Below are positions 24,324-43,043 of a DNA stretch of 47,084 bases, one piece after another (position 1 is the first letter of the stretch; every line of letters starts with the position of its first letter). The stretch lies in IMG/VR virus record IMGVR_UViG_3300048596_000020, positions 1-47,084 of that record; one strand, 5' to 3'. This stretch comes from a virus. The translations under genes were made by a program, and so were the position numbers. The notes beneath the pieces are model-generated. The model searched no databases. It worked only from the letters and a program-made list of their open reading frames with translations, and was not told the origin of the DNA.

Positions 24324-24659
24324 CTATCCCCTGCGTTCGCGCGCTTGCTTCCATGCTGAGTGACAGTGAGCGCATAACGCCTGCCAGTTATTGCGATCCC
24401 AGAATATTTTAGCGTTGCCATTGTGAGGCTTCACATGGTCAACCGTATCAGCCTCTGTTATCAGCCCTAGCGCACGGCATCGAACACAGAGGGGATTAGC
24501 GCGCAGGAAGTCTGCCCGCGCCTGTTGCCACTGATAGGTATATCCGCGCGCGTTTGCGGTTGCCTTGTCTGCTCGCCATGAATCGGCCAACGGACCATGA
24601 ATAGCCGGGAGCCTGGCTTTCAGCTTTCCTAGTTTCAATTTGTCTTTACCAGTTGACAC
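24324..24659 (-). CDS. HNH endonuclease
   Basis: Core motif: NPLCVRCRALG (Cys pair), ADTVDHVKPHNGN (D-H of HNH), FWDRNNWQALCAHCHSAWKQ (N, H and second Cys pair). Such HNH proteins beside terminase genes are needed for DNA packaging cuts in HK97-like phages. Start: GTG 24659 (111 aa) has AGGGA about 9 nt upstream and places the start in the 13-bp motif. An ATG at 24719 would put the divergent promoter inside the gene and add 20 unconserved-looking residues; a TTG near 24644 is also possible. Confidence 0.88.
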   Translation of the reverse strand: MSTGKDKLKLGKLKARLPAIHGPLADSWRADKATANARGYTYQWQQARADFLRANPLCVRCRALGLITEADTVDHVKPHNGNAKIFWDRNNWQALCAHCHSAWKQARERRG

Positions 24660-24663
24660 TATT
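24651..24663 (+). repeat. 13-bp motif AGTTGACACTATT, copy 1
   Basis: Exact copy, containing a -35-like TTGACA. A good -10 follows only here. See the finding on the motif family. Confidence 0.8.
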
Positions 24664-24686: not shown

Positions 24687-24698
24687 GCGCCTAGGCGC
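24687..24698. promoter_or_regulatory. 12-bp palindrome at the predicted transcription start
   Basis: GCGCCTAGGCGC is a perfect palindrome placed about +1 to +12 of the promoter above. It could be an operator for a dimeric regulator, or a protective 5' hairpin in the RNA. Confidence 0.5.
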
Positions 24699-24725: not shown

Positions 24726-24929
24726 ATGAACAACAAAGCCATCCTGATTGATCTAGAGCGCGACAGCATGAAACGCGCTTTCGCTTGCGCCCGCGATTGC
24801 ATGGAGCGCGGGCGCAACTTCCAAGCCATAAACCATCGCGGCATTGCTGCGCAATGGTTTGACGCTGCTGACAGCGCGCATAAAATGGCGCGTCTCTGCA
24901 TTCGCCAACTCTCCAAGTTGCAGGGCTAA
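24726..24929 (+). CDS. Hypothetical protein (67 aa), first gene of the small-gene operon
   Basis: Charged helical protein (ILIDLERDSMKRAFACARDC...) with three Cys and no membrane segment. AAGG precedes ATG 24726, about 40 nt from the predicted transcription start. As the first gene behind the strongest promoter it is likely among the earliest products. No family recognised. Confidence 0.75.
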   Translation: MNNKAILIDLERDSMKRAFACARDCMERGRNFQAINHRGIAAQWFDAADSAHKMARLCIRQLSKLQG

Positions 24930-28882: not shown

Positions 28883-28946
28883 GCGCGCAATTCCGGGGGA
28901 TAGTGTCAACCCTGGCAATGCCACTAGGACCGCGCAGGACGCGCGC

Positions 28947-28959
28947 AGTTGACACTATT
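28947..28959 (+). repeat. 13-bp motif AGTTGACACTATT, copy 2, in an inverted pair
   Basis: Exact copy, facing a near copy (GGTTGACACTATC) on the minus strand at 28900-28912. Together with flanking CCGGGGG/CCGGG the pair makes an inverted repeat with arms about 35 bp apart. No clear -10 follows. Confidence 0.75.
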
Positions 28960-29028
28960 CCGGGCGTCCACTACTCCCCTAGCGGCTGACACTTTCGCAG
29001 GCGTAGCGGCCCGCGCGCTAGGTTGGCC

Positions 29029-29083
29029 GTGAAACGCACGTTTCACGCTAATCCGATTTCTAGCCGTGAAACCCCCGTTTCAC
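29029..29083. repeat. Two 18-bp palindromes GTGAAAC-N4-GTTTCAC
   Basis: GTGAAACGCACGTTTCAC (29029-29046) and GTGAAACCCCCGTTTCAC (29066-29083), both flanked by CC and GC, repeat distance 37 bp. Perfect dyads of this kind are typical binding sites for dimeric initiator, partition or regulator proteins. They stand directly before the three direct repeats. Confidence 0.85.
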
Positions 29084-29115
29084 GCGTTTCCGCCCCGATC
29101 CTGGCCGACCCCCCG

Positions 29116-29210
29116 TGTGGCGGGATTTTTGGGCTAATTATCGCTGACCCCCTGTGGCGGGATTTTTGGGCCAAATTACACGCGCCTGCCGTGTGGCGGA
29201 ATTTTTGGTT
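29116..29210 (+). repeat. Three iteron-like direct repeats TGTGGCGGGATTTTTGG
   Basis: Copies at 29116-29134 and 29153-29171 (identical over 19 bp) and 29192-29210 (two changes near the middle and end), spaced 37 and 39 bp. Each has a small CCG...CGG dyad before the T-run. They lie between the palindromes and an AT-rich stretch, next to the primase-helicase gene, which is the architecture of an iteron-type replication origin. Confidence 0.8.
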
Positions 29211-29347
29211 TGCAATTTTTCTCAGTCGCCACCCTATGAAAAGAGATATATACAACATGCCTTCAAATCAATTTCCATATTTTGCATAGCTATTGCTATC
29301 TGTTAAATTTCAAACTCCAAACCTATAAACTGTAAAGGGCAGCAGAA

Positions 29348-31909
29348 TCAATGGGTTGGTTGGGTTTGAAGTTGGGTTTGGAGTTGGTCTAGTTCAAGCC
29401 TTGCATCCCCCTTAAAGCCATTCTTGATCCAGATGGTGTGCGTGGAGTTGCGCCACTTCAACTGCTTGGGCAATTTACTGTAGCCCATCCGGGTCAGCAT
29501 GTGATTTAGTGCCATCGTCCTCGGGACTTCAAACCCATCGGTCATCGCCCGAACCTTCAAAGCGTTGGTCAGGCAACTGCTGGAAATCACGTTCCGGCTG
29601 ATCCCATGCGCCCCCTCGCTAATTATAGATTCGGCCACGGACTCGGCATCTTCCTGGCTCGACGCCATCATCTGCATCTTCTCAGGCGTCATCAGGGCGC
29701 TGCCATCCGCATCGAATCCATCCAGCGGCAACGCCAGCAGCCACGCGCGCAGTTCGCCCGCACAGTGCTTCCACGCATGGTCTACGGCATCGGTGCGCGC
29801 CTTCCAACCCGCAGCGTCCAGTCCGCAGTACGTCAACATTTCGGTCAGGCTCGACCAGGGCGTAAAGACAATGAACCAGCGACGGTCGCCCAACTCCAAT
29901 GGAATAGCGTCATTGTGGTTGGTGAAGGCAACATGGTTGGTGATGTTCCAGGTCTTGTATCCCTTGTCGCCTTTCGCATTGACGCTGATGACATCGTTCG
30001 AAATACAATCCTTCATAGCGTTGTAGATGGTGTATCGGATTTTGCCGGTCAGCATGATTTCTTCGATGAAGTTGATCGCGCTGCCAACCTTCCAGTCATC
30101 GAATTGCCCGCTGTTGGTCAGTACGGTGTTGCCGGTCACGCCGACATTGCGGTATCCCATTGCCGCACGCACTGCCGCCGCGACCAGGCTCTTGCCGTCA
30201 CCCTGCGTACCCTTGATCAGCGGCGACCATCGCACCTTCACGCCAGGCCGCTGTACGTTGTGCGCCAACCATCCCAGCAGCGCAGTGAATACGTCCTGCC
30301 TGCGACCGCACATATCCCACAACAACGCCTGCAGTGCCGCGATCCCCGCAATCCCCCGCTCCGTATAGCTCGTCGCCGTGATCGGCACGCTGTTCGCGTT
30401 GTACTTATTCGCGTAGTCGTAGCCGTCCCACGAAAACAGATTCTCTTTGTCAGGCCGATAGCCCAGGTGATGCACGGTCGCAATGTTCCAGCGAGTGAAC
30501 GCCCATTCGACCGGATCTTCCCGCGCGCCACTTTCACGCATCGGCATCAGCCGCGAATACTCCGCACGGAATGACTGATAGCTCAACTCCGAACCGTCCG
30601 CGCAGTTGTAGAAGAAATCGCCCGCCTTGACGTACACATGCTGTTGCATCCACAACGGCGGCTCCGATCCCTTGCCGCCCGCGATCACTGGCGGGAACAG
30701 CAGCGCACGCACCTTGGCAACCGGCAGTTTCGCCTTCCAGATTTCCAGCCGTTCGTTGACGCTGCGCACGATCAGTTCCTGATACGCCCCCGGCACGCCC
30801 GCGCTGCGAATGCTGGGGATGATCAGGTTGTGCATATCCTCCACCGTGCCGCACGCACTCACGGCATCCAACAACGCCTGCACCTGTGCCTTCTGCTCGG
30901 CAGTGATCAACTCGCCCCCAACGCTCTGCACCGTCACAGGCGCACCGCTGCCGTACATTTCAGTCTGCACCGCGATACTGCGCTGCGGTTCCTGGTAGAC
31001 CTGGCTGCAGCCCGCGCACGCATTCGCAATGGTCAACTCGCGCAGGTAGGTGCGATGTTCGTTCCATTTCTCCCGCGCCAGTCCGCTTTTGCGCATCAGC
31101 CGTTCGATCCGCTCTTCATCGCAGCCGGTCCAGAACGCCAGGTGCGAAGCGAGCGCCATATCATGCTCGCTGCTCAACTCCACTTCACCGCGCCACAACT
31201 GGCCGAAGGTAGCCTTGCCTCCGAACACGCTGGCCGCACCCGCACGCGCAGCGAGCGCCTTTGCAATCAGCGCATCATCATCGGCAGGGCCACGCCACTC
31301 GGCGCGCGGACCATCGCCACGCTCGCCAGCCACACGCGGCGGGAAATACTTTCCGATCAGCGTGGCCACCATCGCATCATGGCAACTGTCCGCATTGCCC
31401 TGCGCGATCCCATCCAGGCCGAACGCAATGCCGCGCCCCTCGGTGTAGAACTCCATGTGCAGCTTGTGGATGTCGCGGCTACGATGTTCGCCAATAGGCG
31501 CAGCAGTTTTGCCGATGATATGGATACCGCGCTTGCTGCTGCTCCACTCCATCAGCGCACCGGGGAAGCACGCCGCCATCCCTGCAGCGAACTCAGACAG
31601 CACGCCATCAACAGCACAACCGTCGATGTCGAAGAACCAGTAGCCGCAATCGGCGGTCATCCAGAAGCCCAGCGCATAACGCAGCGCACCTTGGCTCGAC
31701 GCAGCGCGAACATCCAGCAATGCCGCCACGCTCACGGCATCGTCGTAGCGCATCCAGTTCTTCGAATCGCCAGCGTCCAGCTTGAACACGCTGCCGTCAT
31801 TCGCGCACGGAGTTTTCTTGTACTTCGCTTCAACGCCATCCCATTCCAGCCGCCACACGAACCACTGCGGAATGTTCTTCATCCCGCCCAACGCATCATG
31901 CAAACTCAT
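29348..31909 (-). CDS. Primase with C-terminal SF3 (D5-type) helicase
   Basis: 853 aa from ATG 31909, overlapping the methyltransferase-like stop (ATGA). The N-terminal half looks like a primase-polymerase/D5 N-terminal region: IPQWFVWRLEW opening, YWFFDIDG with catalytic Asp-x-Asp (about residue 90), SSSKRGIHIIGK, and EFYTEGRGIAFGLDG. The C-terminal superfamily 3 ATPase: Walker A GTQGDGKS (about 570), Walker B AINFIEEI, sensor VAFTNHNDAIPLELGDRRWF. It would unwind and prime phage DNA. It ends beside the origin candidate. Confidence 0.9.
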   Translation of the reverse strand: MSLHDALGGMKNIPQWFVWRLEWDGVEAKYKKTPCANDGSVFKLDAGDSKNWMRYDDAVSVAALLDVRAASSQGALRYALGFWMTADCGYWFFDIDGCAVDGVLSEFAAGMAACFPGALMEWSSSKRGIHIIGKTAAPIGEHRSRDIHKLHMEFYTEGRGIAFGLDGIAQGNADSCHDAMVATLIGKYFPPRVAGERGDGPRAEWRGPADDDALIAKALAARAGAASVFGGKATFGQLWRGEVELSSEHDMALASHLAFWTGCDEERIERLMRKSGLAREKWNEHRTYLRELTIANACAGCSQVYQEPQRSIAVQTEMYGSGAPVTVQSVGGELITAEQKAQVQALLDAVSACGTVEDMHNLIIPSIRSAGVPGAYQELIVRSVNERLEIWKAKLPVAKVRALLFPPVIAGGKGSEPPLWMQQHVYVKAGDFFYNCADGSELSYQSFRAEYSRLMPMRESGAREDPVEWAFTRWNIATVHHLGYRPDKENLFSWDGYDYANKYNANSVPITATSYTERGIAGIAALQALLWDMCGRRQDVFTALLGWLAHNVQRPGVKVRWSPLIKGTQGDGKSLVAAAVRAAMGYRNVGVTGNTVLTNSGQFDDWKVGSAINFIEEIMLTGKIRYTIYNAMKDCISNDVISVNAKGDKGYKTWNITNHVAFTNHNDAIPLELGDRRWFIVFTPWSSLTEMLTYCGLDAAGWKARTDAVDHAWKHCAGELRAWLLALPLDGFDADGSALMTPEKMQMMASSQEDAESVAESIISEGAHGISRNVISSSCLTNALKVRAMTDGFEVPRTMALNHMLTRMGYSKLPKQLKWRNSTHTIWIKNGFKGDARLELDQLQTQLQTQPTH

Positions 31910-32541
31910 GCTGCCATCCCCCATTGTTCGGCATAGGCATCGGAGTGCCCTTGCAATGTTTCGCTGCGCTTCTGCCAGCGGTCAGCACCTGGAGGCATGC
32001 GATGCACGCGGCTCCATACTTTATGCTCTTGCGTGCCCACTGCAGGCGGCACAAGAATCTTCGTCGGCTGCAGCAGCGGCACGCCGCGAATCCACAGGCA
32101 GGTAGCCTTGAACTCGGGATGCCCGAACTGCCACGGCTGGATGATCTGCGATGGACCGCAACCGATGATTGCCTGCGCGTGACCGTGCATGATCGGATTC
32201 TCCGCGACCACGCGCGGAATATCGGCGTTCAACATTTCCTTGAAGAACTCCGCCGCCTCGCGCATCTTCTGCCATCGCGGCAGGTACGGGCCATTCTCTT
32301 TGCGACCGTCGATATACAGGTGCTTCACGCCGCTGTTGCACAGGAACGTACAGGTCGGATGCACGATGAACAAATCGAAGTAGCCGCGCATGCAATGCAG
32401 AACATGGCGAATGTCCTGCTGGAAATGCCACGGGCTGTTGTCGGCGCTGGGCAGCAAATCGCAACTCCATGCTTCATGCCCGCGTCGGCGGAACGCTTCG
32501 CGCGTCTTGCCGCTGCTCTCGCACCCGATCAGAACTCTCAT
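31906..32541 (-). CDS. DNA cytosine C5-methyltransferase-like protein
   Basis: 211 aa from ATG 32541 (ATGA overlap). Rossmann-type opening MRVLIGCESSGKTREAFRRR, then GHEAWSCDLLPS, FIVHPTCTFLCNSG (in the place of the PC motif with catalytic Cys) and VVAENPIMHGHA (ENP, in the place of ENV), ending in WQFGHPEFKATCLWIRGVP. This family is common in phages and usually labelled cytosine methyltransferase. It is shorter than true C5 enzymes and has no obvious target-recognition domain, so activity is uncertain. No restriction enzyme partner is present. Confidence 0.75.
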   Translation of the reverse strand: MRVLIGCESSGKTREAFRRRGHEAWSCDLLPSADNSPWHFQQDIRHVLHCMRGYFDLFIVHPTCTFLCNSGVKHLYIDGRKENGPYLPRWQKMREAAEFFKEMLNADIPRVVAENPIMHGHAQAIIGCGPSQIIQPWQFGHPEFKATCLWIRGVPLLQPTKILVPPAVGTQEHKVWSRVHRMPPGADRWQKRSETLQGHSDAYAEQWGMAA

Positions 32542-35043: not shown

Positions 35044-35301
35044 TTACTTGCCGCCCGGCATGTGATACGCCTCGGCAGCAGCGTGGAAACCGTTGTCGCG
35101 GTAGAACTGCATCCACCATTGATCGTTCGCACCGGCTTTGTAGCCATTGGCGTAATCGAAGTTGGCGAACACGTTGCTGCAGTTGTTGGCAGCGTCAACC
35201 GGATTGAAGTTGCTGTAGTCGCGCGGCATCGCCTTGGCTTGGCCTGCGCGGTATCCGTCCCGGTACTGCGTCGAAACTCTTTCCAGCGTTGCGTTGTTCA
35301 C
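35044..35301 (-). CDS. Hypothetical protein (85 aa), first gene of a leftward transcript
   Basis: GTG 35301 has AGGAG 7 nt upstream; the longer frame to 35367 would run through the promoter-like motif. Asn/Tyr/Ala-rich: YRDGYRAGQAKAMPRD, NGYKAGANDQWWMQFYRDNG, two related Y-x-x-G-Y/K-A-G segments suggesting an internal duplication. No family recognised. Confidence 0.7.
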   Translation of the reverse strand: MNNATLERVSTQYRDGYRAGQAKAMPRDYSNFNPVDAANNCSNVFANFDYANGYKAGANDQWWMQFYRDNGFHAAAEAYHMPGGK

Positions 35302-35343: not shown

Positions 35344-35356
35344 AATAGTGTCAACT
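35344..35356 (-). repeat. 13-bp motif AGTTGACACTATT, copy 3, possible promoter
   Basis: Exact copy just after the terminator at 35362-35392 and 43 bp before a gene start. TTGACA is followed after 16 bp by TAAATC, a weak -10 at the same spacing as the 24653 promoter. It may start the 35301-32979 transcript. Confidence 0.6.
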
Positions 35357-35470: not shown

Positions 35471-36055
35471 TTATTCCACCGGGGGAAGCGGAAGCGCGAG
35501 CGGCGCAAGCTGCGGAGCCGGGGCGGTCTGACCCTGCGGCAGCGGCAGCGGCTTCAACTTGTTGCTCGGCGCGGCGGGCACTGCCTTGTTGCTGGACGGT
35601 GCGGGCTTCTGCGAAGGCACGGTCGGCGCGGATGCACGTTTGGCAACCGCACTCGCCGTGCTGCCAGCGGGCTTTTTTGTTGACACCGCCTGGGAGGTTT
35701 TTTTCGCCGGGGCCGAAACGGATTTCTTGACGATGGCCTTTACCTCTTTTGCCGAACGCTTGCGCGTGTCGCGTGCATCGCGTGGGCCGTGCGCACGCAG
35801 CTTGATGCCGATGGCGTCGATCTTTGCCGGATGCGGCTCGGCCAAGCCCAGCTTCTTCGCGTGCGCCTTCATACGCTTCTGCAGCGATGCGCGATCACCG
35901 AAGTAGTTGCTGACCAGCGCCTCGCTGACCTTGCCAGCCTGCGCCACCATGCGCCGCGTGATGTTCACCGCGCCGTTCTTCGCCACCAGCTTTGCACCGA
36001 CATCCAGAAGCTGCGCTTTGCGCTCCGGGCCGGTGGGAACTTTCTTTGCCGCCAT
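35471..36055 (-). CDS. TetR-type HTH protein with histone H1-like tail (194 aa)
   Basis: Residues about 10-62 match a TetR/AcrR N-terminal DNA-binding domain: LLDVGAKLVAKNGAVNITRR, then MVAQAGKVSEALVSNYFGDR and ASLQKRM (helix-turn-helix about 32-51, followed by the family-typical Y-F-x-x-K/R). TetR proteins normally continue into a helical ligand-binding domain. Here the rest is a low-complexity Lys/Ala/Pro/Ser tail like histone H1 or AlgP, ending with Pro-Leu motifs. Likely a regulator or nucleoid-like DNA organiser. GAGGA lies 7 nt before ATG 36055, 12 bp after the VRR-NUC stop. Confidence 0.75.
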   Translation of the reverse strand: MAAKKVPTGPERKAQLLDVGAKLVAKNGAVNITRRMVAQAGKVSEALVSNYFGDRASLQKRMKAHAKKLGLAEPHPAKIDAIGIKLRAHGPRDARDTRKRSAKEVKAIVKKSVSAPAKKTSQAVSTKKPAGSTASAVAKRASAPTVPSQKPAPSSNKAVPAAPSNKLKPLPLPQGQTAPAPQLAPLALPLPPVE

Positions 36056-36067
36056 TGTCTTGTCCTC

Positions 36068-36553
36068 TTAGAGATTGAATGAACCTGGGCCTGTGCAAAA
36101 TGCAGCGTCCCCGCCTTTGCTCAACACGAAGTTCGCCCAATTCAACTGTGCTATTTCGTGCTTGTCGCCTTTGAACTTCCAGCTTTCGTGCTTGACCTCG
36201 CGCGAAACAAATTGCCCGATCATCCTCCCGATATGCTGTGGCCCGATGACGATGGACCGAATGCCGATCAGGTCTGCCGACTTGACAACCTGGTTCTGCG
36301 CCTTGTTTTCGTTAGCCAGTCCGTAGCGAACGGGGACATTGCGCTCGTCCAGTAAAGCACCTACGTTGTTTCGTGTCAACCAAATGCCATTTGTAGCAGC
36401 GTCAATCCGTACTAGGCTTTGTTGACGCGACTCGCTGCCGTCGCCACCGCTGACAGCAATCGCGGGCGCAGCGTCCAGTCCCAGGCGTGCGTATAGGTCG
36501 CGCATCGCCTCTGCAGGGATCGCCCAACGCGCCGCCCAATCACCAAGGTTCAC
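36068..36553 (-). CDS. VRR-NUC-type nuclease
   Basis: 161 aa. C-terminal PD-(D/E)xK core of the virus-type replication-repair nuclease family: SADLIGI (Asp94), GQFVSREVK (Glu119-x-Lys121), then HEIAQLNWANFVLSKGGDAAF (Gln136) and FCTGPGSF. Such nucleases act on branched or structured DNA in phage replication modules. The N-terminal 60 residues are an extra helical part. Overlaps the upstream gene by 4 nt. Confidence 0.8.
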   Translation of the reverse strand: MNLGDWAARWAIPAEAMRDLYARLGLDAAPAIAVSGGDGSESRQQSLVRIDAATNGIWLTRNNVGALLDERNVPVRYGLANENKAQNQVVKSADLIGIRSIVIGPQHIGRMIGQFVSREVKHESWKFKGDKHEIAQLNWANFVLSKGGDAAFCTGPGSFNL

Positions 36554-36801: not shown

Positions 36802-37049
36802 AGCTTGTTCTCCCCGACGCCCAGCGCCACCATCGGATGCGCGTTGTCCACGATACTCAGAATGACCGGCGCACCTTCCTGCAGGCGCTTCAATTCATCA
36901 GGCGTAGGAAACCAGGCCGACTGAATCACGATCCTGCCCGTGTCGCCCCACTGCGCAACGCGCACATGCAATGCGTGGCATTCATCGGGATCAACGCCCT
37001 GCGGCGCACCCAGCCTGTTCGTGTGTCCTTCAATCACGCCCGCTATCAT
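36798..37049 (-). CDS. Hypothetical protein (83 aa)
   Basis: ATG 37049 has GGAG 8 nt upstream and overlaps the rhomboid stop by 20 bp. Mixed alpha/beta (GVIEGHTNRLGAPQGVDPDE, ALHVRVAQWGDTGRIVIQSA, WFPTPDELKRLQEGAPVILS). The C-terminal part resembles a small family seen in phages as unannotated proteins. Translation is coupled to the protease gene. Confidence 0.65.
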   Translation of the reverse strand: MIAGVIEGHTNRLGAPQGVDPDECHALHVRVAQWGDTGRIVIQSAWFPTPDELKRLQEGAPVILSIVDNAHPMVALGVGENKL

Positions 37050-37581
37050 TGTCCAATCTCCATACCCAATAGTTGAGTGTCGCAAAGCCCGCGACCATGC
37101 CGCCCGCGTGCGCCCAATGTCCGACCTGGCCCAGCCATCCTGTAGCGGCCAGCAGCAGGCTCAATGCGAACGCCACGGTCGCTGCCATCCATGCGGTCAT
37201 CGGCATCACCAGCAGCCATACACGCCGCTTGGGATAGAAGCATGCGTAAGCGGCCAGCAGTCCGAAGATGACGCCTGACATTCCCAGCGCCGGAAGGTCT
37301 GGACCTAGCGCCATCTGCGCAGCGGCAGCACCGTAGCCACACCACAGCAGATACCACAGGTAACGCTCGCTGCCGATGTAATGCTCAATGTGCCGACCGA
37401 TGGTGTAGAACGCGATGCCATTGATCGCCAGGTGCCACCACGCGCCATGCACGAACGCATAGGTCACGACTTGCCACAGGTGGAACGCGTGACCGGGCTG
37501 CAGCATCAGTGCGTCCAGCGGCCAGAAGAAACCTGCTGCGTAGACCGCGATCATCAGACCCAGGTAGATGCGAGTGATCAC
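37030..37581 (-). CDS. Rhomboid-family intramembrane serine protease
   Basis: 183 aa, about six hydrophobic segments. The rhomboid signature is complete: WQVVTYAFVHG (the W-R-x-x-T loop-1 region, Arg replaced by Gln37), WWHLAINGIAF with H50-x3-N54, LGMSGVIFGL with G-x-Ser102-G, and GHWAHAGGMVAG with His158-x2-G161-x3-G165. Ser102 and His158 form the catalytic dyad in GlpG-type enzymes, and Asn54 lies at the oxyanion hole. The protein is the minimal six-helix form without a cytoplasmic domain. It sits in the leftward replication operon between two small soluble genes, coupled to both. Substrate unknown. Confidence 0.88.
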   Translation of the reverse strand: MITRIYLGLMIAVYAAGFFWPLDALMLQPGHAFHLWQVVTYAFVHGAWWHLAINGIAFYTIGRHIEHYIGSERYLWYLLWCGYGAAAAQMALGPDLPALGMSGVIFGLLAAYACFYPKRRVWLLVMPMTAWMAATVAFALSLLLAATGWLGQVGHWAHAGGMVAGFATLNYWVWRLDNDSGRD

Positions 37582-39865: not shown

Positions 39866-40056
39866 GGCAGTTCCACCAGCGCCCAATGCGTCACTTCGCC
39901 ATCCAGCAGTTCGCGCTTGCAGTGAAGGTGGAAGCCATCGCTCTTGATATACATGGCTTGGCACCACACGGTAGTCGCACCATCTGAGACAACAACTGCC
40001 ACAATACAGTCCATCAGGGGGAGTGACGTTTTTACGGGAATCCAGTCAATTGACAC
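39862..40056 (-). CDS. DUF551-type protein (64 aa), first gene of the leftward operon
   Basis: GTG 40056 with GGAG 7 nt upstream. (V)SIDWIPVKTSLPLMDCIVA, then THWALVELP at the end fits DUF551. The start codon lies within the TTGACAC motif of the divergent direction, so no leader exists between the two regulatory sequences. Confidence 0.75.
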   Translation of the reverse strand: MSIDWIPVKTSLPLMDCIVAVVVSDGATTVWCQAMYIKSDGFHLHCKRELLDGEVTHWALVELP

Positions 40057-40089
40057 TGTTTTTCTCCGGTGCTTGCAATTGTGTCAATC
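40048..40089. promoter_or_regulatory. Divergent control region with inverted TTGACAC motifs
   Basis: AATTGACACTGTT (plus, 40048-40060) and its counterpart on minus (40077-40089) face each other about 16 bp apart, between the leftward and rightward replication operons. Rightward, TTGACA is followed after 18 bp by TGCAAT (4 of 6). Leftward no clear -10 is seen. Likely shared regulatory region of both operons. Confidence 0.55.
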
Positions 40090-43030: not shown

Positions 43031-43043
43031 AATAGTGTCAACT
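43031..43043 (-). repeat. 13-bp motif AGTTGACACTATT, copy 4
   Basis: Exact copy in the 63-bp gap after the ssDNA-binding-type gene, just before a terminator and pointing back into that gene. No -10 follows, so at this site it is unlikely to be a promoter. Confidence 0.75.

Follow-up and report, generated by a model that had tools for sequence, protein, structure and literature searches.

A TetR-type helix-turn-helix domain joined to a histone H1-like tail in a phage replication operon

What would a phage do with a TetR-type helix-turn-helix (HTH) domain that lacks the ligand-binding domain of its family and carries instead a long basic tail? The question is raised by one gene of IMG/VR virus record IMGVR_UViG_3300048596_000020, analysed over its 47,084 nucleotides (hereafter, the window; Table 1). 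The open reading frame is a real gene: a Shine-Dalgarno-like AGAGGA is located 8 nt upstream of the ATG, and a self-trained codon caller returned a strong score for it (52.7). A frameshift or compositional artefact was ruled out by codon statistics together with the two relatives described below. The gene lies 12 bases after the end of a nuclease gene, whose counterpart in phage 7-7-1 carries the VRR_NUC annotation, and belongs to a minus-strand run that, according to the same caller, extends from 39954 to 29348 and includes helicase, nuclease, methyltransferase and primase genes. The preliminary description had considered it the only clear transcription-factor-like gene of the genome, and a scan of some 35 window proteins, a part of the gene set, revealed no second clear one. 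The replication operon also contains a gene for a rhomboid-family membrane protease (37030-37581, minus strand; Pfam E 1.5e-27) and one for a large primase (29348-31924, minus strand) that combines the NrS-1 polymerase HBD domain with DUF5906 and has its closest relatives in phages Silvanus and Psp6. The right-hand 17 kb of the window gave no DNA-level match to known phages. Short repeated sequences, among them AGGATCGCCGGGATC and CCCTTGGGACCGGGCACG, are present in three copies at positions 665-905, towards the other end of the window, and may encode a collagen-like repeat.

The first 70 or so residues can be assigned with confidence to a TetR-type HTH. The PHROG profile phrog_8723 matches residues 10-63 (E 5.8e-8) and NCBIfam BetI models match with E values of 1.4e-6 and 7e-6, whereas Pfam TetR_N alone gives 17.5 bits (E 0.0036), under its 24-bit gathering cut-off, which the untailed relatives pass; the TetR-like N-terminus proposed earlier is recognized by the former models, and the latter is suggestive of it. 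The phrog_8723 match is limited to positions 24-77 of the 251 of the profile, leaving its C-terminal helices unmatched. Since the same profile was also positive in 12 of 14 control genomes, which are cellular, it acts as a TetR-type HTH model made from phage members. AlphaFold folds residues 9-69 into four helices, mostly with pLDDT near 90, and the closest structural neighbours are solved TetR-type regulators (Z about 10, rmsd 1.2-1.5 over some 60 residues; VIA-align, top rows). The TetR ligand-binding and dimerisation domain is absent, residues 91-194 having neither a domain match nor such a fold in the AlphaFold model. Those residues are rich in Ala (19%), Pro (17%), Lys (13%) and Ser (12%), contain no aromatics and have a pI of 11.2; their pLDDT, mostly about 45-70, predicts disorder. 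Profiles, model and tail composition together bear out the fusion of a TetR-type HTH with an H1-like tail. Of the 120 or so residues of repeat sequence announced for that tail, the Lys/Ala/Pro/Ser character stands, but its length is nearer 104 residues and the sequence is of low complexity with no strict repeat; no KPAA array was found in the protein.

It had been supposed that the tail replaced the ligand-binding domain. Relatives of the nuclease are present in 256-257 phage records, and in many phages the gene next to it, or one a few genes further on and ahead of the primase, encodes an untailed TetR-type HTH. These proteins have 92 aa in Klebsiella phages (95 records match that form), 104 aa in VchM-138, 78-86 aa in Agrobacterium phages, 108 aa in Psp6 and 93 aa in contigs L008 and L009. 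Other phages encode two HTHs in a single chain of 166 aa, one of which was modelled as two helical HTH units; such tandem proteins (L006:3870-4370, L004:4540-5040 and L017-L026) lack the ligand-binding domain and might constitute a built-in pseudo-dimer. Single or tandem, all the untailed relatives are too short for a TetR ligand-binding domain, and many of those in the replication module are annotated 'TetR regulator'. Because relatives at this locus consist of the HTH alone and have no tail, the tail was probably added, and "replaced" is not quite right; the simplest history would be that an HTH without a ligand-binding domain gained a tail once. The untailed regulators of phrog_8723 (from Klebsiella phage JD001-like, Vibrio phage CP-T1/VchM-138-like and other related phages) resemble the present protein in the TetR-type HTH, the missing ligand-binding domain and the helicase/nuclease/primase module, and differ from it in their single (78-108 aa) or tandem (166 aa) HTH, their short helical C-terminus and the absence of a Lys-rich tail.

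Two tailed relatives were found. A tblastn search of 50,697 phage records returned one close relative, gp44 of Stenotrophomonas phage Silvanus (QYW02518.1, annotated hypothetical; 47% over residues 10-88), which the genome paper does not mention (PMC8928760), and a scan of IMG/VR added a second one, on contig L007. No relatives were found in plasmids, nor in bacterial genomes by a scan for short peptide patterns, which distant relatives can escape. In the window, Silvanus and L007 the HTH-tail gene directly follows the nuclease gene, and the three proteins have in common the HTH, a KKLGLxEP linker, the basic tail and an APxNK..PLP patch (APSNK/APTNK..PPLP near the tail end in Silvanus and L007). 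In contrast, the HTHs of Silvanus gp44 and L007 are about 45% identical to that of the window, their recognition helix reads VSDPLVGKHVG versus VSEALVSNYFG, and the tails have diverged in sequence and length. In the tree, the tailed proteins group together with support of 96/95; the neighbours of this clade are the Agrobacterium-phage HTHs, a placement that is unsure because of long branches.

Table 1. Features of the HTH-plus-tail gene and candidate control sites in the window
Feature	Position	Strand	Remarks
HTH-plus-tail gene	35471..36055	-	194 aa, ATG start; relatives in Silvanus and L007
TetR-type HTH domain	35849..36031	-	residues 9-69, four helices; profiles, AlphaFold, structural neighbours
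Putative recognition helix	35900..35923	-	residues 45-52, from VSEALVSNYFG; AlphaFold helix; role by TetR HTH analogy
Lys/Ala/Pro/Ser tail, predicted disordered	35474..35785	-	residues 91-194, net +15
Short conserved tail patch APSNK..PLP	35537..35572	-	residues 162-173; common to all three tailed proteins (alignment)
Upstream neighbour, VRR-NUC-like nuclease	36068..36553	-	161 aa; phrog_93; syntenic anchor
13-bp motif AGTTGACACTATT	35344..35356	-	directly after HTH-plus-tail gene, before next gene (35044-35301)
13-bp motif AGTTGACACTATT	24651..24663	+	good sigma70-like promoter TTGACA-16-TATATT of + operon from 24726
13-bp motif AGTTGACACTATT	28947..28959	+	28.4-29.3 kb intergenic region; two-mismatch inverted copy 28899-28911(-)
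13-bp motif AGTTGACACTATT	43031..43043	-	63-bp intergenic gap, orientation opposite to adjoining genes
Inverted pair of diverged AGTTGACACTATT copies (2 and 3 mismatches)	40048..40089	.	divergent control region, helicase operon vs recombination/polymerase operon
Two palindromes, CGTGAAACGCACGTTTCACG and CGTGAAACCCCCGTTTCACG	29028..29084	.	contain GTGAAAC, core of Silvanus intergenic motif

Which sites could such a protein read? All four exact copies of AGTTGACACTATT are intergenic, a recurrence that beats any 10-12-mer in shuffled intergenic DNA (0/200). Six of its bases are the -35 hexamer, and the motif in part reflects a plain -35 box. Since a good -10 box is missing at 28899 (the two-mismatch copy) and at 43031, the motif is more than a promoter. 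A further palindrome, the 12-bp GCGCCTAGGCGC at 24687, lies downstream of the 24651 promoter and ahead of the ATG at 24726. In Silvanus, the intergenic motif AGTGAAACCCC is repeated in several intergenic segments beyond shuffles (0/200), with some copies, in both orientations, between -35 and -10-like boxes, a placement that would fit an operator. In L007, copies of AGTGAAACCCC are retained downstream of the HTH gene and in the corresponding divergent region, and both genomes have a promoter-like site after the HTH gene, at the place matching that of the window. On the other hand, the untailed phage Psp6, whose primase is the most similar after that of Silvanus, has neither AGTTGACACTATT nor AGTGAAACCCC in its intergenic DNA, though its recognition helix resembles that of the window; this is a negative outcome for the operator idea. 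No intergenic motif stands out in untailed phages SppYZU01 and RCIP0093, and untailed Scuro and Psp6 have A+T-rich ones. The presence of a motif may be suggestive as a marker of the tailed protein; as the motifs of the window, Silvanus and Psp6 all differ, none of them follows the protein from genus to genus. The repeated intergenic motifs fit operators and are leads to candidate sites of the HTH-plus-tail protein. Two other repeat regions were observed. Between the convergent operons of the window, beside the 3' end of the primase gene, positions 29028-29330 contain two 20-bp palindromes (at 29028 and 29065, the latter containing GTGAAACCCCC), a repeat of 27 nt in three copies and A+T-rich DNA, which could be an origin or a set of tandem terminators. 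At the primase 3' end of Silvanus (L003:27382-27505) and L007 (L007:14837-14939), AACCTGTAACC repeats in both orientations, candidate iterons, flank A+T-rich DNA.

We propose, with a probability of about 45%, that the protein is a regulator of the phage's own operons, with the tail raising its affinity or coating the DNA. In the model, the single TetR-type HTH, free of an effector-binding domain, would read short sites in the control regions of the phage, while the Lys-rich tail would add a strong non-specific electrostatic contact to the flanking DNA. By providing higher affinity, DNA coating or bridging, the tail would take the place of the absent TetR dimerisation/ligand domain. As a product of the helicase-nuclease-primase operon, the protein would most likely dampen the early and replication operons or set the time of their transcription, and it would do so with no need of a small-molecule inducer. 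We infer repression at the putative DNA sites and a direct contact of the tail with DNA. A lone TetR HTH deprived of a dimer partner normally binds weakly, which counts against a regulator. A more defined version, in which an inducer-free monomer uses its one HTH on asymmetric sites of 11-13 bp, the H1-like tail replaces the affinity of dimerisation, and the operators are AGTTGACACTATT here and AGTGAAACCCC in Silvanus and L007, is doubtful.

The place of the gene among replication genes suits a replication role equally well, and this is the main rival to regulation. The protein would be a replication or genome-organising factor, whose HTH marks the origin or the replicating phage DNA and whose tail coats or compacts that DNA or else brings in the helicase, nuclease and primase; its main target would lie outside transcription. 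Such a role, tentative and on the unlikely side, is consistent with the constant location of the gene within a helicase/VRR-NUC/primase block, although synteny shows operon membership and not function. It is also consistent with the palindromes at 29028-29084 and the three 27-nt repeats at 29111-29213, which adjoin the primase 3' end and the A+T-rich stretch, and with the same relative place of the AACCTGTAACC repeats, beside A+T-rich DNA, in Silvanus and L007. However, the repeat units of the window differ from those of Silvanus, and the 27-nt repeats also resemble weak tandem terminators.

The remaining alternatives concern the tail, on which charge statistics and the comparison of relatives bear. 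No other called gene has a 90-residue stretch as basic as that of the HTH-plus-tail gene (+19, against +8 for the runner-up), and the charge of the tail was matched in none of 2000 position-wise codon shuffles. Its length varies among the three proteins (79, 94 and 104 residues). The comparison of Silvanus with L007 shows purifying selection and strong constraint on the HTH (dN 0.06, dS 0.41) and a looser tail (dN 0.40, dS 0.84, dN/dS about 0.48). The net charge per residue of the tail is nevertheless 0.266 in both; in neutral simulations of equal divergence, which were simple and had assumed mutation rates, it averaged 0.094 and reached 0.266 in 0 of 1000 runs. Hydrophobic residues are also rarer in the tail than under neutral simulation. 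Because the charge density is equal in the two proteins and far lower in the simulation, selection seems to keep the physics of the tail rather than its letters.

These data make it improbable that the tail is a flexible linker presenting its proline-rich patch APSNK..PLP to a partner, as SSB tails do, with the charge being secondary: conservation of the tail across the three proteins is indeed highest at its end (KAPSNK..PLP in Silvanus), but a pure linker would not need a charge density kept well beyond the neutral expectation. A host-directed silencer or nucleoid disruptor, which coats or condenses host DNA and stops host transcription, would draw on the strongly basic, H1-like tail and on the precedent for DNA binding by such tails (PMC9239181). 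This role is less probable again: nothing ties the protein to host DNA, the gene is outside any obvious host-takeover cluster, and untailed relatives hold the same locus, so that the core role would be independent of condensation. That the tail is a functionless neutral low-complexity expansion or frameshift junk, as its variable length and fast sequence change might suggest, is very unlikely given that three divergent genomes have kept it open, basic, disordered and with the same end patch, and that its charge is lost under neutral simulation and unreached by codon shuffles. Since the tailed combination is kept at one locus in two distant phages and selection seems to maintain the charge of the tail, the product is probably a working DNA-binding protein.

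Both halves of the protein have known counterparts. KPAA-type tails of Pseudomonas AlgP and PhaF, proteins with net charges of +55 and +35, have been reported as DNA-binding (PMC9239181). By analogy, the phage tail may work alike in DNA contact, being likewise a disordered Lys/Ala/Pro tail on an unrelated N-terminal domain; AlgP and PhaF differ in having KPAA repeats, a more basic character and N-terminal domains that are not TetR HTHs. Classical TetR/AcrR regulators (BetI, HapR/SmcR, EilR) share the HTH fold and the DNA-reading helix, and have their own helical ligand-binding/dimerisation domain, which the phage protein lacks. HTH-only phage TetR proteins and H1-like tails are thus each known, whereas no description of their union, kept here in three divergent phages, was found in the open-access literature searched, nor a paper testing a ligand-free phage TetR HTH. 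TetR HTHs of the ligand-free kind, annotated 'TetR regulator', are common across phage replication modules, and the tailed branch offers a natural comparison, with and without tail, on one HTH scaffold. Such a comparison would test whether a disordered basic tail substitutes for dimerisation in sequence-specific DNA binding.
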